DNA from: Streptomyces cyaneus
GTDB lineage: Bacteria > Actinomycetota > Actinomycetes > Streptomycetales > Streptomycetaceae
Assembly: GCF_004028635.1 (NCBI RefSeq)
Contig: NZ_RQJW01000011.1
Span: 62,001 to 126,000 of the forward strand
DNA: 64,000 nucleotides
Direction of reading: 5' to 3'
Under the pieces are notes generated by a model that was given only the letters and a program-made list of their open reading frames with translations, had not been told where the DNA came from and did not search any database. The position numbers were made by a program, and so were the translations under genes. Of this stretch, positions 45,775-59,580 are shown piece by piece (the stretch's first letter is position 1; every line of letters starts with the position of its first letter).

Positions 45775-48700
45775 CTACCGTTCGCTGACCGCCGCTGACC
45801 GTAGCGCGCGGCCCTGCTCGAAGGCCTTCTCGTATGCCTCGCGGGACAACTTCTCGCGTACCTCCTTCCGCGTCCGTACGGCATCGGGGTCGCCATCGGT
45901 CGACGCGCCCCGCAGGCCCTCCGCGGCGCCCAGGAGTTCGGCCGCCCGCTCGGGGTGCGGGGCGACGGAGGCCAGGGCCTCGGCGACGGCCGCCAGGGCG
46001 AGGGTGTCGGGGACGTCCAAGGCGTGCGTGCGGGCTTGGGCGAACCAGTCGCGGGCTTGGTCGAGATCGCCCTCGGCGGCCGCCGTGCGGCCCAGCCCGA
46101 TCAGGATCAGGACGGTCTCGCCGACGCTGAACCAGTTCGCCGCGCAGGCCTGGAGAGCGCTTTCGTAGTGCACGCGCGCGTGGGCGGTGTCCCCGGTCTC
46201 GCAGAGCCGGGCCGCGTCGCCCAGGCCGCGCCGGGCGGCCGCCACCTTGTCCGGGGCACCCGCCGCGCGGGCCAGGTCGGCGGCTCGCGTGAAGAGCGCC
46301 ACCGCGTCCTCGCTGTCGCCGCGGTACAGCAGCACGGTGGCGCGGGAGCGCAGCAGGTCGGAGGTCTCCTCGGGTGCGTCCAGTTCCTGGACGTACTCCA
46401 GGCCTTCGTCGAACAGCTCCAGGGCGCGGTCGTAGTCGCCGCGCCGGCCCGCGAAGCCACCCAGCGGATCCAGGCAGTTGGCCATGCCCCAGCGGTCACC
46501 GGTCGCACGGAATCCGGCCAGTGAGCGCGCGAAGGCCGCCTCGGAGGCCACCGGGTCGCCCGTGAACTGCGCCTGGTAGGCGAGTCCCAGATCCAGCAGC
46601 GCGCGGCCCCACGGTGCGTCGCCGACCTGGACGGCGAGCAGGTCGTCGTCCACCGCGTACAGCGGGCCGGCGGCCAGCGACCACAGGACCATGGTGAAAG
46701 GCAGCCGCAGCGGCTCGTCCAGGGCGCGCATGAGCGCGGCCACACGCGCGATGCGGTCGGGTTCGCCCGGATCGTCGCCGCGGCCGGTGACCGTGTTCAT
46801 CAGACACAGCGCGTACTCCTCCGCCAGCCCCGGCGGCGGTGCCTCGCCGACCGCCGCCAGCAGGGCGCGAGCCAAGGGCACCTGCTCGCCGTACGGGGCG
46901 CGCAGCCGCCAGAACCAGGACAGGGTCGCCATCAGCCGCAGGGCGCCCTCGGGGGCCGTGGCGACGAGATGGCGCAGAGCCGCGTCCAGGTTGTCCCGCT
47001 CGGTGTCCAGACGGGCCAGCCAGGGGAGTTGGCCGCCACCGCGCAGACACGGCTCCGCGCGCTCGGCCAGCGCCCGGAAGTACGCCGCGTGGGCGTCCCG
47101 CAGCCGGTGCTCGTCCGCCAGCCGCTCGGCGGCGTACGCGCGGATGGTCTCCAGCATCCGGTAGCGGCCCTCGGACACTTCCAGGAACGACTTCTCGACC
47201 AGCGAGGCCAGCAGGTCCTCCGGATGCGGGGTCGCGCACACCGCTTCGACCGCCTCCAGGGTGGCCCCGCCCACGAAGACCGTCAGCCGGGTCGCGAGCT
47301 CCCGCTCCTCCTCGTCCAGGAGGTCCCAGCTCCACTCCACGACGGCGCGCAGGGTCCGATGCCGGGGAGCCTTGGAACGGTCGCCGCGGGAGAGAAGGCG
47401 GAACCGGTCGCCCAAGCGGTCCGCCAACTCGTCCGGGGTGAGGGTGCGCAGCCGGGCCGCCGCCAGCTCGATGGCGAGAGGCAGCCCGTCGAGGGCCGCG
47501 CAGATGTCGGCCACACGCGCGTGGCCCTCGAATCCGGGACGCACGGCCCGCGCGCGATCGAGGAAGAGCCTGCCCGCGGGCTCCGGCGGCAGCGGCGGTA
47601 CGGGGATCAGGACCTCACCGGTGATGCCGAGCGACTCACGGCTCGTGGCGAGCACGCGCACCCCGGGACACGCGCCGAGCAGCAGCGCGGACAGCCGGGC
47701 CACGTCCGTCACCAGGTGCTCGCAGTTGTCGAGGACGAGAACGAGCTCGCGGTCCTCCAGCGCGGCCAGCAGTCGCTCGGTGCCGTCCGTCGCGGGGGTG
47801 CGCAAGCCGTCGCGCACTCCGAGGGCGGTCAGTACGGCGTACGGGATCTGCGCCCCGTCGGTGAGGGGTGCCAGCTCGGCGTAACAGACGTCGCTGTGCC
47901 CGCTCGCCGCCTCGATCGCCAGCCGGGTCTTGCCCGCGCCGCCGGGGCCGGTGAGCGTGACGAGACGGGAGCCCGCTCCCCCGCTCAGCAGCTCAGAGAT
48001 CCGTACGAGCTCTGTCTCCCGGCCCACGAAGCGGGTGAGCTGGACGGGGACGCGTCGGCGGTCGTCCCGCTGTCCCCGGAGCAGCTCCAGGTGCAGCGCG
48101 GACAACTCGGCGGAGGGGTCCGCACCCAGCTCCTCCGCGAGCGCCCGCCGGGCCTCCTCGTACACCGTCAGCGCCTCGGCGGGCCGCCCGACCGCGTGCA
48201 GGGCGCGCATCAGCTGGCCGTACAGCCGCTCGCTCAGGGGGTGCGCGGAGAGCAGCGCCCGAAGCTCCGGTATGAGTTCCGGACCGCCGCCGAGCGCCAG
48301 ATCCGCCTCGATGCGGTCCTGTACGGCGGCCAGCCTGAGCTCGTCGAGCCGGGTGCGCTCGGCGTGCGCGTCCGGGAGGTCGGGCAGGGCGGGGCCACGC
48401 CACAGGGCGAGCGCGCCCAGAAGCCCGGCCGCGGCCCGCCGGTGGTCTTTGGCGGCGAGGGCGGCACGTCCGTCGGCGGCCAGCTGCTCGAACCGGTGGG
48501 CGTCCACCGTGTCGGGAGCTGTGGCGATGCGGTAGCCGGTCGGGGTCGCCTCGATCTCCGTGTGCGGGGCGAGGCGCCTGCGCAGGCGGGAGATCTGCGA
48601 CTGGAGGGCGTTGGCGGCACCGGCGGGCGGCCGGCTGCCGTAGAGGCCGTCCAACAGGCGCTCCATGGAGACCGCCCGGCCCGCGTCGAGGAGCAGGAGG

Positions 48701-48792
48701 GTGAGCAGGGCGCGAGGCCGGGGGCCGCCGGGGTCGACGGGGGTGCCGTCGTCGGTGCGTATCTCCAGTGGGCCCAGGATGCCGAAGCGCAT
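45775..48792 (-). CDS. AfsR/SARP-type giant regulator (OmpR-like DBD, BTAD, NTPase, TPR)
   Basis: The 1005-residue protein starts at the ATG at 48792. Residues 1-~95 are the winged-helix SARP DNA-binding domain (RPRALLTLLLLDAGRAVSMERLLDGLYG, ISRLRRRLAPHTEIEATPTGYRI in part). Residues ~100-245 form the bacterial transcriptional activation domain (AVGRPAEALTVYEEARRAL). Next is an NB-ARC-like ATPase with Walker A GPGGAGKTRLA (~280) and Walker B LVLVLDNCEH. The C-terminal ~400 residues are TPR-like helices. It lacks the protein kinase partner seen beside afsR. It may control the adjoining monooxygenase gene. Confidence 0.9.
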   Translation of the reverse strand: MRFGILGPLEIRTDDGTPVDPGGPRPRALLTLLLLDAGRAVSMERLLDGLYGSRPPAGAANALQSQISRLRRRLAPHTEIEATPTGYRIATAPDTVDAHRFEQLAADGRAALAAKDHRRAAAGLLGALALWRGPALPDLPDAHAERTRLDELRLAAVQDRIEADLALGGGPELIPELRALLSAHPLSERLYGQLMRALHAVGRPAEALTVYEEARRALAEELGADPSAELSALHLELLRGQRDDRRRVPVQLTRFVGRETELVRISELLSGGAGSRLVTLTGPGGAGKTRLAIEAASGHSDVCYAELAPLTDGAQIPYAVLTALGVRDGLRTPATDGTERLLAALEDRELVLVLDNCEHLVTDVARLSALLLGACPGVRVLATSRESLGITGEVLIPVPPLPPEPAGRLFLDRARAVRPGFEGHARVADICAALDGLPLAIELAAARLRTLTPDELADRLGDRFRLLSRGDRSKAPRHRTLRAVVEWSWDLLDEEERELATRLTVFVGGATLEAVEAVCATPHPEDLLASLVEKSFLEVSEGRYRMLETIRAYAAERLADEHRLRDAHAAYFRALAERAEPCLRGGGQLPWLARLDTERDNLDAALRHLVATAPEGALRLMATLSWFWRLRAPYGEQVPLARALLAAVGEAPPPGLAEEYALCLMNTVTGRGDDPGEPDRIARVAALMRALDEPLRLPFTMVLWSLAAGPLYAVDDDLLAVQVGDAPWGRALLDLGLAYQAQFTGDPVASEAAFARSLAGFRATGDRWGMANCLDPLGGFAGRRGDYDRALELFDEGLEYVQELDAPEETSDLLRSRATVLLYRGDSEDAVALFTRAADLARAAGAPDKVAAARRGLGDAARLCETGDTAHARVHYESALQACAANWFSVGETVLILIGLGRTAAAEGDLDQARDWFAQARTHALDVPDTLALAAVAEALASVAPHPERAAELLGAAEGLRGASTDGDPDAVRTRKEVREKLSREAYEKAFEQGRALRSAAVSER

Positions 48793-49358: not shown

Positions 49359-51344
49359 GTGGCGCACGTGCCGCAGACATTCTTCGATGCTCTCGCGGTG
49401 CGCACCTGGTGCGGCCTCGCGTTGGAGTCGCTGGGTCGCGCGCGTGAGGAGATCGACGCGATCAACGTCTATCCGGTGGCCGACGGTGACACCGGGACGA
49501 ACCTGTATCTGACCGTGGAGTCGTCCGTGGCCGCGGTCGAGGCGGTGTTCGCCGGGCACGAGGTGGATTCCGCGCGGACCGGGAGCCCCTCGCTGGCCGA
49601 CGCCGTGCGCGCGATGGCACACGGGGCTCTGATCGGGGCCCGGGGGAACTCCGGGACGATCCTGGCGCAGCTGCTGCGTGGCATGGCGCAGGTGCTCGCC
49701 GCCGACGGGGAGGCGGCTCACACCGGCGGAGGGGGCCTGCGGCTCGCCCTGCGGCGCGCCGCCGACTCCGCGCGCGAGGCCGTGGCCCATCCCGTCGAGG
49801 GCACGGTGCTCTCGGTCGCCTCGGCCGCCGCCGACGCGGCCGACGGAGCGGAGGGCGACTGCGGGACGGTCGCGCGGGCTGCCTACGAGGGGGCGCGTGC
49901 CGCCCTCGCCGCGACGCCCGGCCAGCTGGCCGTCCTGGAGCGCGCCGGGGTCGTCGACGCGGGTGGGCGAGGGCTGGTGGCGGTGCTTGCGGCGCTGGTG
50001 GAGACGTTCACCGGGGAGGCGCCGCGGGCGGTCGGGTCCTTGGCCAAGGGTTCCGGTTCGGGTTCCGGGACGTACGCGCGCGGGGGGCGCGGTGGGGCCG
50101 GGGATGAGCAGGGGCTCGCAGGGGACGGCGGGGGCGGCGAGGGCGGTGGATCGCACGCACGTGTGGAGACTGCGGAGACGACGGCGGGCGACACCGCACG
50201 CACGCGCGTGGAGCGCGGCACCGGGATGCCGCCCATGGACCTGGAGCCGGGTGCCTTTCCCGGGCCGGACCTGGAGTGGGGTGCCTTTCCCGGGAGCGAC
50301 GAACACCTCGCGTCCCACGTGCCGGGGCAAGCGGCAACCGCGGCGCACGCGCGCGGGGGCTCCGCCGTCCCGGGCGACCTCGACGACTGCGCCGACGGTC
50401 CGGCCGGACACGGCGGAGGTGGCCCCGCCTTCGAGGTGATCTACCTCCTGGAGGCCGATGACGCGGCCGTTGCCCGGCTGCGGGCCCGGCTCGACGCCCT
50501 CGGGGACTCCCTCGTCGTGGTCGGCGGCGACGGGCTGTGGAACGTCCATGTGCACGTCGACGACGCGGGCGCCGCCGTGGAGGCGGGCGTCGAGGCCGGG
50601 CGGCCGTACCGGATCCGGATCACCCACTTCGGGCTCGGCGACGTCCACACCACCGGCGGCGAGCGGCCACTGCGGGAGCGGGTTCAGCGCGCCGTGGTGG
50701 CCGTCGTGCCGGGTGAGGGCCTGGCCGGGCTGTACACCGAGGCCGGCGCGACCGCCGTGCTCGCGCGGCCCGGGGAGCCGCCCGCCAGCGGGGAACTCGT
50801 CGACGCCGTACGGCGGGCCCACGCGCGTGAGGTCGTGCTGCTGCCCAACGACCCCGAGCTGCGCCACACCGCGGCCGCCGCGGCCGAGCAGGCCCGCGCG
50901 GAGGGCATCCGCGTGGCGCTGATCCCGACCCGCTCCGCGGTCCAGGGCATCGCGGCGCTCGCCGTGCACGAGCCGGAACGCCGCTTCGACGAGGACGTCG
51001 TGTCGATGACCTCGGCGGCCGGCGCGACCCGGTACGGCGAGGTCGCCGTCGCGGAGCGCCAGTCCTGGACCATGGCCGGCATCTGCCAGGCCGGCGACAT
51101 CCTCGGCCTGATCGACGGCGACGTGGCCGTGATCGGCTCAGATGTCACGGCCACCGCGGAGACCGTCCTCGACCGCATGATCGCGGCCGGCGGCGAACTC
51201 GTCACGATCGTCCTCGGCGACGAGGCACCGGAGGCGATCGCCGAGCACCTCGAAGCACGCGTGCGTGAGTCGTATCTCGCCGTCGACACGGTGGTGTACC
51301 GGGGCGGGCGGCAAGGGGCGCTGCTGCTCATCGGCGTGGAGTGA
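49359..51344 (+). CDS. DAK2 domain protein (FakA/YloV-like fatty acid kinase subunit)
   Basis: The GTG at 49359 follows AGGAGG by 5 nt and gives 661 residues. The N-terminal ~200 residues are a DhaL/DAK2 nucleotide-binding domain (INVYPVADGDTGTNLYLT, HGALIGARGNSGTILAQLLRG, VEGTVLSVASAAADAA). A Gly-rich low-complexity linker (~225-350) follows. The C-terminal ~300 residues are the DAK-phosphatase-like part (VVVGGDGLWNVHVHVDDAG, EVVLLPNDPEL). FakA proteins phosphorylate fatty acids bound by FakB. No fakB is nearby, so the partner is unknown. Linkage to rpmB and recG is conserved among Gram-positives. Confidence 0.88.
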   Translation: MAHVPQTFFDALAVRTWCGLALESLGRAREEIDAINVYPVADGDTGTNLYLTVESSVAAVEAVFAGHEVDSARTGSPSLADAVRAMAHGALIGARGNSGTILAQLLRGMAQVLAADGEAAHTGGGGLRLALRRAADSAREAVAHPVEGTVLSVASAAADAADGAEGDCGTVARAAYEGARAALAATPGQLAVLERAGVVDAGGRGLVAVLAALVETFTGEAPRAVGSLAKGSGSGSGTYARGGRGGAGDEQGLAGDGGGGEGGGSHARVETAETTAGDTARTRVERGTGMPPMDLEPGAFPGPDLEWGAFPGSDEHLASHVPGQAATAAHARGGSAVPGDLDDCADGPAGHGGGGPAFEVIYLLEADDAAVARLRARLDALGDSLVVVGGDGLWNVHVHVDDAGAAVEAGVEAGRPYRIRITHFGLGDVHTTGGERPLRERVQRAVVAVVPGEGLAGLYTEAGATAVLARPGEPPASGELVDAVRRAHAREVVLLPNDPELRHTAAAAAEQARAEGIRVALIPTRSAVQGIAALAVHEPERRFDEDVVSMTSAAGATRYGEVAVAERQSWTMAGICQAGDILGLIDGDVAVIGSDVTATAETVLDRMIAAGGELVTIVLGDEAPEAIAEHLEARVRESYLAVDTVVYRGGRQGALLLIGVE

Positions 51345-51360: not shown

Positions 51361-54324
51361 CTACTCCGTGTCCTGCTCCTCCACCACCTGAAGCATCTGC
51401 CGGGCCTCGGACCGTCGCTCCTGCGCCGCCTCGTCGCCCTCGTCACAGCCCTCGTACGCCGCCAGCACCGCACGCGCGCGTGCCGCCGCCCGGTCCGGGC
51501 GGCTCAGGTCGGCCTCCAGCCAGCCCGCGGCGAGTTCGGCGCCGGTGCGGCTGTGCAGGGCGTCGTCGCCGAGGGAGGCGAACACCGCGGCGGCCCGCGT
51601 CACCTGGGACAGGGCCTCCTCCAGCGCGGCCCGGATCGACTCGTCCTCGGCGTCCTCCGTGGCGGAACGGGCGAGCAGGTCGCTGAACTGCCGGTGGGTG
51701 TGGCCGAGCTCTGCGGTGAGCCGCTGCCGCGCCTCCTCGTCGTCCGCGGCGTCCAGCGCCGCCACGCACTCGTCGACCGCGCTCGCCATCAACTCGGACG
51801 CCGTGCCGTCCCTCCCCGCCACGCCCTCGCCCGCCACGTCCTCCGCGCGCAGCGCCAGCCACGCGCGGGCGCGCAGGGAGCGGACGAGGCCGTGGACGTT
51901 GCCGAGGGAGCGCCACAGCGTGCCCGCGCGCGTGTACGCCCGGTCCGCCTCGGCGTGCAGGCCCGCGTGGCTCAGGGACTCGGCGGCGAGGTGGGCGAGC
52001 GTGGCGTGGTCGTGCTGCTCGGGCCAGTGCCGGGCGATCTCGGCGGCCTGCAACCGGCGTTCGGCCGCCGCGCGGTGTTCGCCGAGCTCGCTCAGACAGT
52101 CGCCGAGCCACCACTGCGTCTGGACGACCGCCCCGTCGCCGTGCGTCTCGGCGGTCAGGTCGGGCAGCGCCGACTCCAGCACCTCGGCCGCCTCGGCGAA
52201 CCGTCCCTGCCGCAGCAGGAACCCGCCGAGCTGCTGCCGCCCCCAGGCGCCCAGCGTGCGGCTCTCGCCCGCCTCGTCGGCCCAGTGCGCCGCCTGAAGG
52301 GCGTGTTCGGCGGCCTCCTCGGACAGCCCACGGCCGCCGAGCAACTCGGCCAGCTGGAGGTTCAGCTGGGCCCGCCCGGTCGCCTCCAGGTGCGGCCCGC
52401 CGTGTTCCAGGGCCGCCCGCAGCGCCCGCTCGGCCTCCGCCGTGTCGCCGAGATGGTGCGCGAGTCCGGCCAGCCGGGCCTCGTACTCCACCGCGAACCA
52501 CGGCAGCCCCGCCTCGACGAACGCCTCCGAGGCCCGCGCGAACAGCTCCGCGGCCCCCGCCACGTCCCCGGTGAGCGCCGCCAGCTCCGCGAGCATCGCC
52601 TGCGCCTCCGCGGCCCGCGAGATGAGCCGTACGTCGTCCCCGGCCCGCCCGTCTACGAGCGCGAGCACCTCCCGCGCGGCGGTCTCGGCGTCGGCCAGGA
52701 CGGCGCCCTGCACCGCGTCCTCCGCCTCGTGCACCCGCCGCATCAGGATCCGCGCCCGGCTCATCAGCACGGCTGCCGTCTGACGGACCTCCGTGCCGTC
52801 CTCGGCGTACAGCGCGAGAATCCGGTCGTACAGGTCGGCGATCGTCGTGAGGGCCTCGGACACCTCGCCCGTGAGTGCGCGTACGTACGCTCCACGCGCG
52901 CGTGCCGCCAGGGCCTCCCCGGGGTCGCCCGCCTCCGCGTACAGCCCGGCGGCCTCCTCGAACAGGGCGATGCCCTCGGGGCCCAGGTCCACCGCCCGGT
53001 GATCGGCGATCTCCGCGCGGTCGAGGGCGTCCAGCTCGACGCCCTCGGCGGCCCGCGAGACGGCCGCCCAGGCCTCGATGGCGTTCGGCTGCAGGGTGTC
53101 CGACAGGCGTCGTGCCTCGGCGAGCAGCGTGGCCAGGTCGAGCCGCGTGTCCGGATCCTCCGGCGCGCTTGCCGCAGTCGGCACGGGCAACGCCACCGCC
53201 GTCGGCCGAGCCGGCGTACGCACGCCCAGCGGCAGGCGCTCCACCAGTGGCCGCTGCTCCATACGCGCGCGTGCCCGCTCGCTGATGTGCCCCGTGCCGT
53301 TGCGCTGGTCGAAACGCGCGGCCAGGTCGAGGGCCTCCGCGCGCGCGTGGACGGCGAGTTCCCGGGCGCTCCAGGTACGGCCCGCCGGACCGGGCACCTG
53401 CTGATCCCCGAGCCCGAGCCCGGTCAGGCGGTCCATGAGCAGGGCCACCACCGTCATGAACTCCAGCTTGCTGCGCGGATGCCCGTCGTCCGTGAAGTAC
53501 GCGGGCCGCTCGGCGAGCAGCTCCAGGCCGCGCGCCTCGTTGCCGGTGAGCACGCAGAACTCCACGTGGTCCGCGTAGGCCCCGCGCATGCTCTCCATGG
53601 CCCGTACGAGCCTGAAGCCCCGCAGATGGTTGGCGCGGGCCTCGTCGACGCGGCCCAGGCGCAGCAGTGGCGCCAGGGAGGACGCGAGGACCGTGTGCGG
53701 CTCGTGGGCGCACGTGAACTCGCCCTCCAGGACCGGCCCCCACAGCTGCAGCCCCTCCGCGTCCCGGCCCCGCTCCGCCTGCCACCACCCCTGCCCGTGC
53801 AGCTCGCACGCGTGGCAGTCGGCCATGCTGTCCCGGTCGGCGGCCAGCCAGGCGCCGTACGCCCGCTCGGCCCGCGCCACGTCCCCGACATGCGCGGCCA
53901 CGCTGAACTCGGCGCTGCGCACCGCCCGTTCGGAGTGCCCGGCGAGCCGGTAGCGGTGCTCCATCTCGCCGAGCCACTTCTCGATCGAGGCCAGCGGGAT
54001 GTGCGGCTGGTCGAGCATGCCGGACGACATCCACTTGAAGACCCAGTGCAGCGAATGCGTCTCGTACTCGTCGAAGTCCTCGGGCCGCTCGTCCCACATG
54101 CGCAGCAGACGCGCGAACGGGACGAACATCTTGTCCTTCTCGGAGCTGTAGTTGTAGACCTTCAGCTGGTGCCCGAGCGCCTCGATCACGGCGAGCGGGA
54201 CGTTCAGCTTCTCGGCCTCGGCGAGCAGCTGCTCCGCGCGCGCGTTGCGGGCGGGACCCTCCGGCTCCTCGGCGTTCTCCGCCATCGCCCGGCGCAGCGA
54301 GTCGAAGTCGGTGATCTCACTCAT
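51361..54324 (-). CDS. Large TPR/helical-repeat protein coupled to HSP90 gene
   Basis: The ATG at 54324 overlaps the TGA of the HSP90 gene (TGATG) and has GGAGG upstream, so translation is coupled. The 987-residue cytosolic protein is nearly all helical. The N-terminal ~300 residues contain HSLHWVFKWMSSGMLDQPHIPL, CHACELHGQGWWQAERGR and repeats of about 35-40 residues. The C-terminal 600 residues are TPR-like with Leu/Ala-rich A-W-x-A repeats (AEAERALRAALEHGG, AEVLESALPDL). No catalytic motif is seen. A co-chaperone or client-docking role is inferred from the coupling. Confidence 0.85.
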   Translation of the reverse strand: MSEITDFDSLRRAMAENAEEPEGPARNARAEQLLAEAEKLNVPLAVIEALGHQLKVYNYSSEKDKMFVPFARLLRMWDERPEDFDEYETHSLHWVFKWMSSGMLDQPHIPLASIEKWLGEMEHRYRLAGHSERAVRSAEFSVAAHVGDVARAERAYGAWLAADRDSMADCHACELHGQGWWQAERGRDAEGLQLWGPVLEGEFTCAHEPHTVLASSLAPLLRLGRVDEARANHLRGFRLVRAMESMRGAYADHVEFCVLTGNEARGLELLAERPAYFTDDGHPRSKLEFMTVVALLMDRLTGLGLGDQQVPGPAGRTWSARELAVHARAEALDLAARFDQRNGTGHISERARARMEQRPLVERLPLGVRTPARPTAVALPVPTAASAPEDPDTRLDLATLLAEARRLSDTLQPNAIEAWAAVSRAAEGVELDALDRAEIADHRAVDLGPEGIALFEEAAGLYAEAGDPGEALAARARGAYVRALTGEVSEALTTIADLYDRILALYAEDGTEVRQTAAVLMSRARILMRRVHEAEDAVQGAVLADAETAAREVLALVDGRAGDDVRLISRAAEAQAMLAELAALTGDVAGAAELFARASEAFVEAGLPWFAVEYEARLAGLAHHLGDTAEAERALRAALEHGGPHLEATGRAQLNLQLAELLGGRGLSEEAAEHALQAAHWADEAGESRTLGAWGRQQLGGFLLRQGRFAEAAEVLESALPDLTAETHGDGAVVQTQWWLGDCLSELGEHRAAAERRLQAAEIARHWPEQHDHATLAHLAAESLSHAGLHAEADRAYTRAGTLWRSLGNVHGLVRSLRARAWLALRAEDVAGEGVAGRDGTASELMASAVDECVAALDAADDEEARQRLTAELGHTHRQFSDLLARSATEDAEDESIRAALEEALSQVTRAAAVFASLGDDALHSRTGAELAAGWLEADLSRPDRAAARARAVLAAYEGCDEGDEAAQERRSEARQMLQVVEEQDTE

Positions 54325-56159
54325 CAGCGGCCTCCGTCGCCGTTCGTGGCCCATTCCAGCAGCCCGATGAAGGCCCGGTTCAGCAGCGCCGAGTCCGCGG
54401 GCCTGAGTGGTCGCTGCGCCATCAGCAGCGCCTGCCCGTACAGGGACTCGGTGGCGGTGCCGATCAGCTCCGGGTCGCCCAGGGAACTGATCCGCCGGAT
54501 CAGCGGGTTGAGGTGGTTGAGCACCAGACGCGCGCGTGGCGCGCTGCCGCGCAGCGAGCCGAGGATGCCCGCCCACAGGTCGTCGGCCTGCTCCTCCGCC
54601 TCCGCACGTGCCTGCTCGTGCCGGGCCGCCCGGTCGTCGAGGTGCAGCGCGGGCACGGACAGCGGATGGAAGGCGCGCAGGACGACATCACAGCCCAGCG
54701 GGTCGAGCTTCGCCCGCGCGGCCGCCAGAAAGCCGGCCAGGGCCAGCTCCTCGGCCGGGTCGACCGCGTCCAGATGGGCGGTCACGGTGTCCGCGTCCAG
54801 CTCTGCGACGACCGTCCCCGGCCGCACCGACGGCAGCGCCTCGACCAGCTCGCTGTCGTACGTGTAACCGCCGTTGATCACCCCGACGCCCTGCGCGGAC
54901 GCGATCGGCGCGACCTGCCGGTACTCCTCCACGGTCCGCGTGAAGTGCACCACCGGGTGCCGCTGGGCGAACTCCTCCAGGGACAACCGTCCGTCGGTCG
55001 TCTCGAAGGGCAGCCACGGCAGCATCGTGCGCAGCATCTCCTTGTCGTGCCGCGCGAGGGACTTCACGCCCAGATGGTGCACGGACAGGAATGCCTCCAG
55101 CCGTTCCGGATCACCGGCCGCCAGCCCCGTCAGCCAGGACCGAATCCTTTCGCCGAGCGCCTCCCGTACGCCCGCCAGCGTCTCGTCCTCGTACAGCGAC
55201 TCACGCGAGGCCGTCGGCCTGAGGCTGTCGGTGTCCAGGACACAGCGCACGAAGAACGCCCAGTCGGGCAGCAGCTGTTCGGCGCGCTCGGTCAGCAGCA
55301 TGCCCTTGAGGTGGACGCGATGCCCCGCCCGCTGGGCCGGGCTGACCGCCGAGGGAAGGACGTAGGCCACGCCACGAATCCCCGCGAGCGGCACGTCCAG
55401 CTCGATCGAGTCCAGCGGCGTGAAGCCGAACAGGTCGTGACAGTGCCGCGCCAGAGCCACCCTCCGGTTGGCGGGTGAGGCGTACGACCGGTCCCAGGGC
55501 GCGGGCAGATCGGTGACCGCCTCGTGGCCGACCCGGACGTCGTACGGCAGCAGCGACCCGAAGTCCCGCGCCAGCGCGAGAACCCGGTCCTCCGCCAGCC
55601 ACTCGGCGGCCCCGGCCCGCGCCACCAGGTGCACGGTGGTGCCCGGTTCGGCGCGGGCGTCGTCCGGCAGCGTCCGCACGGTGTACGAACCGTCGTCCGT
55701 GGCCGTCCACTCCACGGGCGGCGCGTCCGGCGTACGGGCGCTGCGGCTGACCACCCGGATCCGCTCGGCGACCACGAAACAGGCCAGCAGACCGATGCCG
55801 AACTGCCCCAGGAAGTCGGACCGGGCCTCCTGCAGCCCCTCGGCACGCTTGGAGCTGCGCCCGATGGTCGCGAGGAGGTTGTGCACGTCCGCCTCGGTGA
55901 GCCCGACCCCGGAGTCCTCGACCCGCAGGGCGCCCGACTCGACGTACAGCCGCACCTTGGCCGGCGCGCCCGGCTCCTCGGCGCGTCTGGCGGTGATGGC
56001 GTCGACGGCGTTCTGCAGCAGCTCGCGCAGATAGACCTTGGGACTGGAGTAGAGGTGATGGGAGAGCAGGTCCACCAGACCACGCAGGTCGACCTGGAAG
56101 GTGTGAGGTGACTGGGGCGGCTGAGGTGCCTGGGATGACTGTGAGGTCTGGGAGTCCAT
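54324..56159 (-). CDS. HSP90-family ATPase (HtpG-like)
   Basis: The ATG at 56159 opens a Gln/Ser/Pro-rich tail (MDSQTSQSSQ) and gives 611 residues. The GHKL ATPase has VYLRELLQNAVDAI (catalytic Glu and Asn), RVEDSGVGLT (Asp-x-Gly-x-Gly), NLLATIGRSSK, and DFLGQFGIGLLACFV. The middle domain contains VHLKGMLLTERAEQLLPDWAFFVRCVLD and SRESLYEDE with the conserved Arg. The C-terminal dimerisation part is divergent. It is annotated in Streptomyces as an HSP90-family protein rather than orthodox HtpG. The downstream TPR gene is coupled. Confidence 0.93.
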   Translation of the reverse strand: MDSQTSQSSQAPQPPQSPHTFQVDLRGLVDLLSHHLYSSPKVYLRELLQNAVDAITARRAEEPGAPAKVRLYVESGALRVEDSGVGLTEADVHNLLATIGRSSKRAEGLQEARSDFLGQFGIGLLACFVVAERIRVVSRSARTPDAPPVEWTATDDGSYTVRTLPDDARAEPGTTVHLVARAGAAEWLAEDRVLALARDFGSLLPYDVRVGHEAVTDLPAPWDRSYASPANRRVALARHCHDLFGFTPLDSIELDVPLAGIRGVAYVLPSAVSPAQRAGHRVHLKGMLLTERAEQLLPDWAFFVRCVLDTDSLRPTASRESLYEDETLAGVREALGERIRSWLTGLAAGDPERLEAFLSVHHLGVKSLARHDKEMLRTMLPWLPFETTDGRLSLEEFAQRHPVVHFTRTVEEYRQVAPIASAQGVGVINGGYTYDSELVEALPSVRPGTVVAELDADTVTAHLDAVDPAEELALAGFLAAARAKLDPLGCDVVLRAFHPLSVPALHLDDRAARHEQARAEAEEQADDLWAGILGSLRGSAPRARLVLNHLNPLIRRISSLGDPELIGTATESLYGQALLMAQRPLRPADSALLNRAFIGLLEWATNGDGGR

Positions 56160-56349
56160 CGTCGCTGCGCCGGTGGGGGGACTTCGCGACGGCGCGGGGT
56201 CGGGCGGCCCCGGTGAGGCGGTGACCGCGAAAGGATGGCCGGAGCGCGCCATCCTAGAGCCGAAACGAACCGTCTGACCAGGGGTTTCCGGGACGTTTAC
56301 CGGGACGGTCGCCGCGACCTCTACGGCATTGTCAGTGCCGTGGTGTGGA
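56160..56349. other. Divergent promoter region HSP90 / recG
   Basis: This 190-bp gap must carry promoters for both genes. No CIRCE- or HAIR-type heat-shock inverted repeat is visible, and neither gene has a strong ribosome site. TTTACC (56296-56301) is a possible -35 for recG. Confidence 0.35.
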
Positions 56350-59300
56350 ATGGATCTCGTGCCCGCACTGGAAGAACCACTGAAGAAAGTGCTCGGCCCT
56401 CCCACCGCGAAGGTGATGGCCGAGCACCTCGGCCTGCACACCGTCGGCGATCTGCTGCACCACTACCCGCGCAGATACGAGGAGCGCGGCCAGCTCACCC
56501 ACCTCGCCGACCTCCCCATGGACGAGCACGTCACGGTGGTCGCCATGGTCGCCGACGCCCGCCTGCACACCTTCGCCTCCTCCAAAGCCCCCCGGGGCAA
56601 GGGCCAGCGCCTCGAAGTCACGATCACGGACGGCAGCGGCCGCCTCCAACTGGTCTTCTTCGGCAACGGCGTTCACAAGCCCCACAAGGAGCTCCTGCCG
56701 GGCACACGCGCGATGTTCGCGGGCAAGGTCTCCGTCTTCAACCGCCGCCTCCAACTGGCGCACCCGGCGTACGAGTTGCTGCGCGGTGCCGACGACGAGG
56801 CAGCCGAAACCGTGGAGACCTGGGCGGGCGCCTTGATCCCCATCTACCCCGCCACCGCCAAACTGGAGTCCTGGAAGATCGGCAAGGCGATCCAGACGGT
56901 CCTCCCCAGCGCCCAAGAAGCGATCGACCCCCTCCCCGACACCCTCCGCGAGGGCCGGGGCCTGGTCCCTCTCCCCGAGGCCCTCCTCAAGATCCACCGC
57001 CCGCACACCAAGGCGGACATCGAGGACGCCCGCTCCCGCCTCAAGTGGGACGAGGCCTTCGTCCTCCAGGTCGCCCTCGCCCGCCGCCGCCACGCCGACG
57101 CCCAACTCCCGGCGGTCGCCCGCAAACCCAAGCCGGACGGCCTCCTGGCGGCCTTCGACGACCGCCTCCCCTTCACCCTCACCGAAGGCCAGCAGAAGGT
57201 CTCCAGGGAGATCTTCGACGACCTGGCCACCGAGCACCCGATGCACCGGTTGCTCCAAGGGGAGGTGGGGTCGGGGAAGGCCCAGCCGCTCGATTCCCTC
57301 GTGCTCGCACCCACTGGCTTCCGCCGTATGGGCGACTTGAGGGTGGGGGACGAAGTTGTCGTGCCGGACGGGGAGATCGCGCTGATCGACGGCCTCTTCC
57401 CCCAGGGAGAGCGCGATGTCTGGCGAATGGTCCTTTCCGACGGAAGTTCCGTCGAGTGCGACGACGAGCATCTCTGGATCGTCGGCACGAGTTGTGGATG
57501 GCACCGTGGCCAGTCCCCCAAAGTCATGACGACTCGGGAGATCCGCCTGGACACGTTCAAGGCAAACGGATCTTCGAAGTGGTACCTCCCGGTGGCCACC
57601 CCGGTTGACCTCGGGGACGACTGCGGGCTCCCTCTCGATCCGTACCTGTTCGGCCTCCTTCTGGGCGGCGGCTCATTCCGGCACAACTTGCGTCTGTCCA
57701 CGATCGACGCCGAGATCCGCGACGCGGTGGCGGCGGCCGTGGCCCCCGAGTGCCAACTCGTCCCGGTGAAGGGATCCCGCTGCGACTACACGATCCAGCT
57801 GACCCGCCGTACGGGCGGCTCTCGCAATCCAGTGATCCAGGCCATGCGGGAGCTGAGCCTCTGGGGCGTGACGTCGCATGGCAAATTCGTTCCCGAAGCG
57901 TTCAAGAACACGTCTGTCAAGAACCGCCTGGCTGTGCTCCAAGGGCTTATGGACACCGACGGCACCGTCCACACGGGCGGATTCAGCGCCTCGTTCTGTT
58001 CGGCCTCGCGGACTCTCGCGGAGGACGTCGCCTGGCTGGCGCGCTCACTGGGAGGCCGGGCACGAATCTTGCCGAAGCGAGCGGCGTTCAACGTGTCCGT
58101 ATCCCTGCCTGACGCGTACGCCCCGTTCAGGCTGACACGCAAGGCGGAACAGCTGGGCCCCCGCCCGAAATACAACACGCTGCGACGCGGGATTCGGGCG
58201 GTCGAGTATGTGGGGCGGAAGCCGGTCCAGTGCATCAGCGTCGCACACCCGAGCCATGCCTACGTCACCGACAACTTCACTGTCACGCACAACACCATGG
58301 TGGCCCTGCGCGCCATGCTTGCCGTCGTCGACGCCAGCGGTCAGGCCGCCATGCTCGCGCCCACCGAAGTGCTCGCCCAGCAGCATCACCGGTCGATCGT
58401 CGAGATGATGGGCGAGCTGGCCGAGGGCGGGATGCTGGGCGGGGCCGAGCAGGCCACGAAGGTCGTGCTGCTGACGGGCTCCATGGGAGCCGCCGCCCGC
58501 CGCCAGGCGTTGCTCGACCTCGTCACCGGAGAGGCCGGGATCGTGATCGGCACGCACGCGCTGATCGAGGACAAGGTGCAGTTCCACGACCTCGGCCTGG
58601 TCGTGGTCGACGAGCAGCACCGCTTCGGCGTCGAGCAGCGCGACGCCCTGCGCGGCAAGGGCAAGCAGCCGCCCCATCTGCTCGTCATGACGGCGACGCC
58701 CATCCCGCGCACGGTCGCCATGACCGTCTTCGGTGACCTGGAGACCTCGGTCCTGGACCAGCTCCCGGCCGGACGCTCCCCGATCGCCAGCCACGTGGTC
58801 CCGGCGGCCGACAAGCCCCACTTCCTGGCCCGCGCCTGGGAGCGGGTGCGGGAGGAGGTGGAGAACGGCCATCAGGCGTACGTCGTCTGCCCCCGCATCG
58901 GGGACGAGGAGGACGACCCGAAGAAGACCGGCAAGAAGAAGTCCCCCGAGGACGAGGCCGAGAAGCGCCCGCCGCTCGCCGTCCTCGACGTCGCCGACCA
59001 GCTCGCCACTGGGCCGCTCCAAGGCCTCAAGGTCGAGGTCCTGCACGGCCGTATGCACCCCGACGACAAGGACGCCGTCATGCGCCGCTTCGCCGCCGGC
59101 GAGACGGACGTCCTGGTCGCCACGACGGTCATCGAGGTCGGCGTCAACGTCCCGAACGCCACCGCCATGGTGATCATGGACGCCGACCGCTTCGGCGTCT
59201 CCCAGCTCCACCAGCTGCGCGGCCGAGTGGGCCGTGGCTCCGCCCCCGGCCTGTGCCTCCTGGTCACCGAAATGCCGGAGGCCAGCGCGGCCCGCCAGCG

Positions 59301-59580
59301 CCTCAACGCGGTCGCCGCCACCCTCGACGGCTTCGAACTCTCCCGCATCGACCTGGAACAGCGCCGCGAGGGCGACGTCCTCGGCCAGGCCCAGTCGGGC
59401 GCCCGCACCAGCCTGCGGATGCTGGCGGTCATCGAGGACGAGGAGATCATCGCGGAGGCGAGGGAGGAGGCGGCGGCGGTGGTTGCGGCCGATCCGGAGC
59501 TGACGGGCCTTCCTGGCCTGCGCACGGCCCTGGACGCCCTCGTGGACGAGGAGAGAGAGCAGTACCTGGAAAAGGGGTGA
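56350..59580 (+). CDS. recG: ATP-dependent DNA helicase RecG, interrupted in frame by an intein
   Basis: The precursor has 1076 residues; removing the intein (311-648) leaves 738, normal for Streptomyces RecG. The N-terminal wedge/OB domain reads LHHYPRRYEERGQLTHLADL and VTITDGSGRLQLVFFG. Walker A is split: GEVGSGK (Lys310) and then, after the intein, T(649)MVALRAML. The DEQH box (VVDEQHRFG) is at 754-757, motif III MTATPIPRT, and the C-terminal helicase half has TTVIEVGVNVPNA and QLRGRVGRG. RecG remodels stalled forks and branched DNA. It can only work if the intein splices out. Confidence 0.97.
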   Translation: MDLVPALEEPLKKVLGPPTAKVMAEHLGLHTVGDLLHHYPRRYEERGQLTHLADLPMDEHVTVVAMVADARLHTFASSKAPRGKGQRLEVTITDGSGRLQLVFFGNGVHKPHKELLPGTRAMFAGKVSVFNRRLQLAHPAYELLRGADDEAAETVETWAGALIPIYPATAKLESWKIGKAIQTVLPSAQEAIDPLPDTLREGRGLVPLPEALLKIHRPHTKADIEDARSRLKWDEAFVLQVALARRRHADAQLPAVARKPKPDGLLAAFDDRLPFTLTEGQQKVSREIFDDLATEHPMHRLLQGEVGSGKAQPLDSLVLAPTGFRRMGDLRVGDEVVVPDGEIALIDGLFPQGERDVWRMVLSDGSSVECDDEHLWIVGTSCGWHRGQSPKVMTTREIRLDTFKANGSSKWYLPVATPVDLGDDCGLPLDPYLFGLLLGGGSFRHNLRLSTIDAEIRDAVAAAVAPECQLVPVKGSRCDYTIQLTRRTGGSRNPVIQAMRELSLWGVTSHGKFVPEAFKNTSVKNRLAVLQGLMDTDGTVHTGGFSASFCSASRTLAEDVAWLARSLGGRARILPKRAAFNVSVSLPDAYAPFRLTRKAEQLGPRPKYNTLRRGIRAVEYVGRKPVQCISVAHPSHAYVTDNFTVTHNTMVALRAMLAVVDASGQAAMLAPTEVLAQQHHRSIVEMMGELAEGGMLGGAEQATKVVLLTGSMGAAARRQALLDLVTGEAGIVIGTHALIEDKVQFHDLGLVVVDEQHRFGVEQRDALRGKGKQPPHLLVMTATPIPRTVAMTVFGDLETSVLDQLPAGRSPIASHVVPAADKPHFLARAWERVREEVENGHQAYVVCPRIGDEEDDPKKTGKKKSPEDEAEKRPPLAVLDVADQLATGPLQGLKVEVLHGRMHPDDKDAVMRRFAAGETDVLVATTVIEVGVNVPNATAMVIMDADRFGVSQLHQLRGRVGRGSAPGLCLLVTEMPEASAARQRLNAVAATLDGFELSRIDLEQRREGDVLGQAQSGARTSLRMLAVIEDEEIIAEAREEAAAVVAADPELTGLPGLRTALDALVDEEREQYLEKG
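57280..58293 (+). other. Class 3-type intein with LAGLIDADG endonuclease domain in RecG Walker A
   Basis: 338 residues lie between Lys310 and Thr649 of RecG. The intein begins with Ala (AQPLDSLVLAPTGFRRMGDLRVGD), so no Cys/Ser N-terminal nucleophile exists. It has block B ECDDEHLWIVG (His64, Trp66), block F PVQCISV (Cys318) and block G VTHN ending His337-Asn338, followed by Thr +1. Trp(B)-Cys(F)-Thr(G+1) is the WCT triad of class 3 inteins. The central part has two LAGLIDADG helices: LFGLLLGGGSF (Gly130 replaces the acidic residue) and LQGLMDTDGTV (Asp227 intact). Codon choice is less GC-biased than in the RecG parts, which suggests horizontal entry. Confidence 0.95.

Follow-up and report, generated by a model that had tools for sequence, protein, structure and literature searches.

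A second bacterial HSP90 and its adjacent helical protein form a conserved gene pair, a possible chaperone-partner module

The window analysed here is a stretch of 64,000 nucleotides from Streptomyces cyaneus (contig NZ_RQJW01000011.1, positions 62,001 to 126,000). On its minus strand, between DAK2 and recG, lie a gene for a HSP90 family protein and, overlapping its end, a gene for a large helical protein, referred to below as the partner. The features concerned are as follows:

49359-51341, plus strand: DAK2 (TIGR03599 YloV, 429.7 bits)
51361..54324, minus strand: partner protein, 987 aa, consisting of a conserved N-terminal helical domain, a linker and a C-terminal TPR array
51364..53136, minus strand: C-terminal TPR superhelix of the partner (residues 397-987), found only in actinobacterial partners
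53245..54324, minus strand: N-terminal domain of the partner (residues 1-360), the region shared across phyla, with C170, C173, C205 and D165
54322..54326, minus strand: TGATG stop/start overlap, read from the sequence
54324..56159, minus strand: HSP90 family protein (NF010683/PRK14083), 611 aa, with N-terminal GHKL ATPase, middle and C-terminal domains
56160..56349, minus strand: intergenic region from the HSP90 start to the divergent recG, with conserved blocks in 11 aligned Streptomyces-type loci
56350-59577, plus strand: RecG (NF008167, 1132.5 bits)

An initial annotation had described a HSP90 gene and a 987-residue TPR protein sharing one base within TGATG, and both genes were found as described; base 54324 is common to the stop codon (TGA) of the HSP90 and the start codon (ATG) of the partner. 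This overlap makes translational coupling likely, and overlaps of 1-4 bases were common in related HSP90/partner loci. The same annotation spoke of genes 'fused in expression', which was right as regards their overlap but not as regards fusion, since the HSP90 and its downstream gene occupied separate frames, or had a stop between them, at the 36 loci that were read. The strand opposite the pair contains long ORFs, as expected of a GC-rich genome; the minus-strand pair was interpreted as the real genes because conservation supports it. Chance or mis-called ORFs were ruled out by the recurrence of the pair across phyla. A tRNA-Pro reported by ARAGORN within the partner gene, on the opposite strand (window 51983-52080, plus strand), is likely to be spurious and was taken as a false positive. 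When the plus-strand text of window 55001-57500 was searched with palindromic patterns, allowing up to four mismatches, no HAIR or CIRCE element was found, nor was any HspR- or HrcA-type regulatory element seen upstream of the pair.

The pair had also been thought to be inserted between two genes of otherwise conserved linkage, and this was examined within the genus. Among 19 genomes, the DAK2-recG junction contained the pair in 10 (across contig ends in G014 and G017) and was empty in eight, with 30-110 bp between match ends; one genome was not judged. Two genomes (G006 and G012) had an empty junction, yet carried the pair at another site. Beyond DAK2, a gene for a SARP/AfsR-like regulator of 1005 aa (window 45778-48792, minus strand) adjoins the presumed rpmB; it scored 220 bits against NF053617, under the cut-off of that model. 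On the other side of the pair, RecG (56350-59577, plus strand) contains an in-frame insertion of about 337 aa (residues ~312-648), situated between the GSGK and the T of Walker A. It begins with Ala, ends in HN-T, exceeds the cut-off for LAGLIDADG_3 and matches DnaB model NF005852. The insertion is an intein, perhaps of class 3, and while absent from other relatives it was present in G009, G011, G016, G002 and G018.

The HSP90 scored 866.9 bits against NF010683 (cut-off 455) over residues 17-608; by this sequence match it is classed as an equivalog-level member of a known but uncharacterised family, the model for which covers the HSP90 only. It shares its fold and ATPase motifs with HtpG (NF003555), but identity as HtpG was ruled out by a score of 176.2 bits against a cut-off of 371. 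The same genome contains a separate, canonical HtpG-like gene (C2, 422.8 bits to PF00183). In a set of 31 relatives, a HtpG-like match was present in 16 of the 23 genomes bearing the pair and absent from the other seven, while one genome (G001) had the HtpG-like gene only; the two HSP90s are therefore independent of each other. A HtpG-like match was also present in 9 of 12 genomes behind the loci of a wider, named scan. Alignment of the window HSP90 with 51 of the 80 scan HSP90s (A5) showed that E46, N50, D53, D82, G84, G86, G118, F120, G121, G123 and R319 were invariant among these 52 sequences from many phyla. We take R319 to be the catalytic arginine of the HSP90 middle domain, and the window protein thus possesses both the GHKL ATP-site residues and the middle-domain arginine. 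Its predicted model (pLDDT 88.8) has the N-M-C architecture and matched the fold of full-length TRAP1, HtpG and Hsp90 with Z of ~30; for TRAP1 (7kcl_A), Z was 30.0 and rmsd 5.7 over 538 aligned positions (residues 22-608), and for the HtpG chain of 9a6t Z was 29.7. No MEEVD was present at the C-terminus of any of the 52 HSP90s (51 distinct tails).

The partner matched no NCBIfam or PADLOC model. Its predicted structure (mean pLDDT 93.1, pTM 0.87) consists of an all-helical N-domain (residues 1-360), a linker of low confidence (~361-396) and a TPR superhelix (397-987). Matches of this model in structure searches mainly concerned residues 388-906, that is, the C-terminal TPR array, the fold of which resembled LGN (Z 22.6, rmsd 6.0, 330 aligned) and similar TPR proteins. 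A sequence search of solved structures produced no match to the N-domain among the matches listed (the best 60, covering the TPR part only). TPR_12 matched the C-terminal part of 30 of 32 partners at E 0.01; the window partner itself scored 25.1 bits, below Pfam's 30.1. Within the N-domain, indications of TPR were weak: TPR_8 reached 26.1 bits (against 25.7) in one Listeria copy and TPR_14 26.2 bits (against 23.5) in L083, while several others had none. Partners were aligned in two sets, the window sequence with 31 of 34 fetched partners (A1) and with 46 of 74 scan partners (A4). C170, C173, C205 and D165 were present in 47 of 47 partner sequences. R341 and N342 were likewise present in each of the 46 sequences extending that far.

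Complete partners from outside Actinobacteria are only ~310-400 aa long, equal to the N-domain, whereas actinobacterial partners are mostly 880-1033 aa (676 in L057), these lengths being upper bounds for some scan partners with starts set too far upstream. Since the non-actinobacterial partners comprise the N-domain alone, the giant TPR array is a feature of one lineage. What is conserved is the HSP90 plus the N-domain, a unit that actinobacteria have extended by the TPR array. The 'giant' TPR protein of the initial annotation is therefore a fair description in actinobacteria but not elsewhere.

Linkage of the two genes was strict among the relatives. In the 31 genomes, the partner was directly downstream at all 35 places where NF010683 exceeded its cut-off; genomes with only below-cut-off HSP90-like matches were counted as lacking the family. 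Six genomes had neither gene, and in two (G004 and G015) the matches were partial and confined to the TPR part. A sample of the actinobacterial class contained the HSP90 in 33 of 246 genomes, at 37 places, and the partner adjoined it at 36 of these. Thirty-five places were fetched, of which 34 had the partner directly downstream (L031-L064); the other two of the 37 were the window and G013, both with a partner. At the exception (L065), the HSP90 was followed by a TPR protein of 297 aa with an overlap of four bases, while at L066, which was below the cut-off, broken TPR-like reading frames occurred downstream of the HSP90.

The pairing extended far beyond actinobacteria, the group in which a check of co-occurrence had first been proposed. 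In Paenibacillaceae, 43 of 118 genomes contained the HSP90 and 41 of these had the partner, directly downstream in every case; the 75 genomes without the HSP90 contained no partner (Fisher, 9e-30). The HSP90 stood alone in two genomes: in G307 (L159) the gene downstream did not match the partner, and in G399 the frame of the HSP90 itself was truncated. The named scan comprised 80 loci, or 79 testable loci when L107 was left out (its contig ends at the HSP90), and the partner adjoined the HSP90 at 74 of them. Seventy-two were downstream on the same strand, one was convergent (L110) and one upstream (L140); that of L136 was weak (35.8 bits) and that of L129 lay in two reading frames. Five loci had a solo HSP90 (L106, L122, L133, L134 and L153), and so frequent occurrence of either gene alone, which would have counted against a dedicated pair, was not observed. 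Clear partners came from about eight phyla, as assigned by the author from record titles: Bacillota, Actinomycetota, Planctomycetota, Acidobacteriota, Myxococcota, Pseudomonadota, Desulfobacterota and Deinococcota; matches in Bacteroidota were weak. Plasmid records of Listeria and Paenibacillus displayed the same adjacency. No third gene recurred broadly across phyla beside the HSP90 and partner at 118 loci. Partners were in tandem in 4 of the 41 Paenibacillaceae genomes, at L124 and in Listeria, where two partner-domain genes follow the HSP90 (L071:7803-9771). Partner-like proteins without an adjacent HSP90 were seen at L067-L069 and in Actinomyces oris (L074:5842-8877); the latter matched with E 1.6e-110 and has a YbjN-domain gene nearby.

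The divergence of the two proteins was compared by the mirror-tree method, after removing L065, L066 and those scan loci whose partner match was missing, truncated or weak. Distances between HSP90s and between partner N-domains were correlated across 99 pairs (r = 0.90; maximum of 500 permutations, 0.085), although much of this signal is shared ancestry, which the permutations leave in. For 4239 comparisons at HSP90 identity <60% the correlation was 0.74. Fifty-nine splits in the HSP90 tree had support of at least 0.9, and 50 of them recurred in the partner tree. Three Streptomyces-type genomes carry two pairs, which have diverged in parallel (identity 0.60-0.62 for the HSP90 and 0.39-0.42 for the partner N-domain). 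In all three genomes the HSP90 and the partner fall into two matching groups of paralogues, and therefore the module was duplicated whole.

Eukaryotic HSP90 works with TPR co-chaperones, such as Hop/Sti1, FKBP51 and Cns1, and the window likewise combines a HSP90 with a helical-repeat protein; it differs in lacking the MEEVD tail and in a partner N-domain without sequence similarity to solved structures among the matches listed. For E. coli HtpG, a 2014 paper states that no co-chaperones had been identified so far (PMC4428384). Two HSP90s, HTPG1 of 638 aa and HTPG2 of 615 aa, are given for S. coelicolor in the consulted sections of Chen et al. (2006; PMC1525184), which contain none of the terms TPR, operon and gene cluster; judging by length and lineage, HTPG2 probably belongs to NF010683. 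No description of the HSP90-partner pair, and no account of the partner, was found in the open-access literature searched; the family of the HSP90 itself already has a name. The Listeria and P. aeruginosa partners presumably correspond to lmo0941 and PA1069, respectively. In the parts of the sources consulted, lmo0941 is a hypothetical protein under selection (PMC6901971), PA1069 is down in a heat-shock table (PMC4957987) and otherwise appears only as an entry in a pull-down table (PMC13411936), and 'PA1068' is a strain name (PMC9995270).

These data give good support to a dedicated chaperone-partner module and suggest that a HSP90 with its own partner protein is possible in bacteria, as in eukaryotes. 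We lean towards the view that the overlapping genes make up a module in which a second, specialised bacterial HSP90 is paired with a partner protein dedicated to it. The proposal of a HSP90 co-chaperone pair thus holds for the pairing but not for the manner of docking it implied. Absence of the MEEVD tail excludes docking of the eukaryotic type, and the conserved domain of the partner is the N-domain rather than the giant TPR array. The partner may be a co-chaperone or a client, between which conserved linkage does not discriminate. Tentatively, and at slightly less than even odds, the partner would be a widespread, previously undescribed bacterial HSP90 co-chaperone: a helical protein of ~350 aa with a cysteine (zinc) site, which evolved with a second HSP90 lineage, is independent of MEEVD and gained a TPR superhelix in actinobacteria. 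In the two-gene module favoured here, the partner would bind the HSP90 directly, its N-domain docking on the dimer by way of some surface that is not a MEEVD tail. It would then control the ATPase cycle or present clients, as a regulator or adaptor. Judging from the cysteines, the invariant CxxC...C may hold a structural zinc, and the actinobacterial superhelix might widen the surface for binding clients or adaptors. The partner could then be a functional counterpart of the eukaryotic TPR co-chaperones, while falling outside that group by sequence.

The main rival to an adaptor or regulator role is that the partner depends on the HSP90 as an obligate client, a cysteine-containing helical protein that the HSP90 folds or assembles and that is itself an effector or sensor. 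Linkage and co-divergence fit this too, a large helical protein with conserved cysteines could need help in assembly, and the tandem partners of Paenibacillaceae, Listeria and L124 also favour it. We nevertheless think it rather unlikely, given that HSP90s without a partner exist, as do partner-like proteins without an adjacent HSP90 (L074, L067-L069), and that strict linkage of a chaperone to a single client is, to our knowledge, rare. These same solo genes also weigh against the reading favoured above. Gene overlap alone requires no contact, and the two proteins might simply be co-regulated within one stress response; this is improbable in view of a linkage that spans about eight phyla, without broad conservation of any other gene, and of the joint duplication of the pair. 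A still fainter prospect is a module of defence or immune type, by analogy with plants, where HSP90-SGT1-RAR1 supports NLR receptors and HSP90 likewise acts with TPR and zinc proteins. The patchy distribution and empty site in sister species would be in keeping with it. However, PADLOC matched only the GHKL ATPase stretch shared with TmtA and restriction enzymes and did not match the partner, no single anti-phage system in PADLOC had models matching both proteins, and no third neighbour recurs across phyla.

Bacterial HSP90 has so far been viewed as a machine that works alone, and few of its clients are known. The partner, which tracks a second HSP90 across many phyla, offers a direct handle on HSP90 control in bacteria. 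It also provides a minimal system of two proteins in hosts that can be cultured (Streptomyces, Paenibacillus and Myxococcales), and it bears on whether TPR co-chaperones had one origin or several. Should the partner prove to be a bacterial co-chaperone, the HSP90-TPR partnership would not have been invented by eukaryotes, and it may have had more than one origin, the pairs in P. aeruginosa and Xanthomonas being the case in point.

In these two species (L075:5881-10122 and L157:4947-9170), a HSP90-like gene is directly followed by a TPR-matching protein of 764-774 aa, the CxxC of which aligns to C170/C173 of the partner. These proteins gave a weak profile match (E 0.0064, probability 5.9%), and the HSP90-like protein of L075 fell below the NF010683 cut-off (292.9 of 455). 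A relative in Nonomuraea had no HSP90 match nearby. Perhaps the two loci represent another, distantly related version of the pair. Finally, a Pseudanabaena plasmid (L073:5932-10795) encodes a HSP90-like protein of 877 aa, followed by a small protein and then a TPR protein. The HSP90-like protein has a weak C-terminal match to CAP12/Pycsar TIR (E 0.001), and a helicase and a TIR-domain gene lie beside these genes; the locus may serve in defence.
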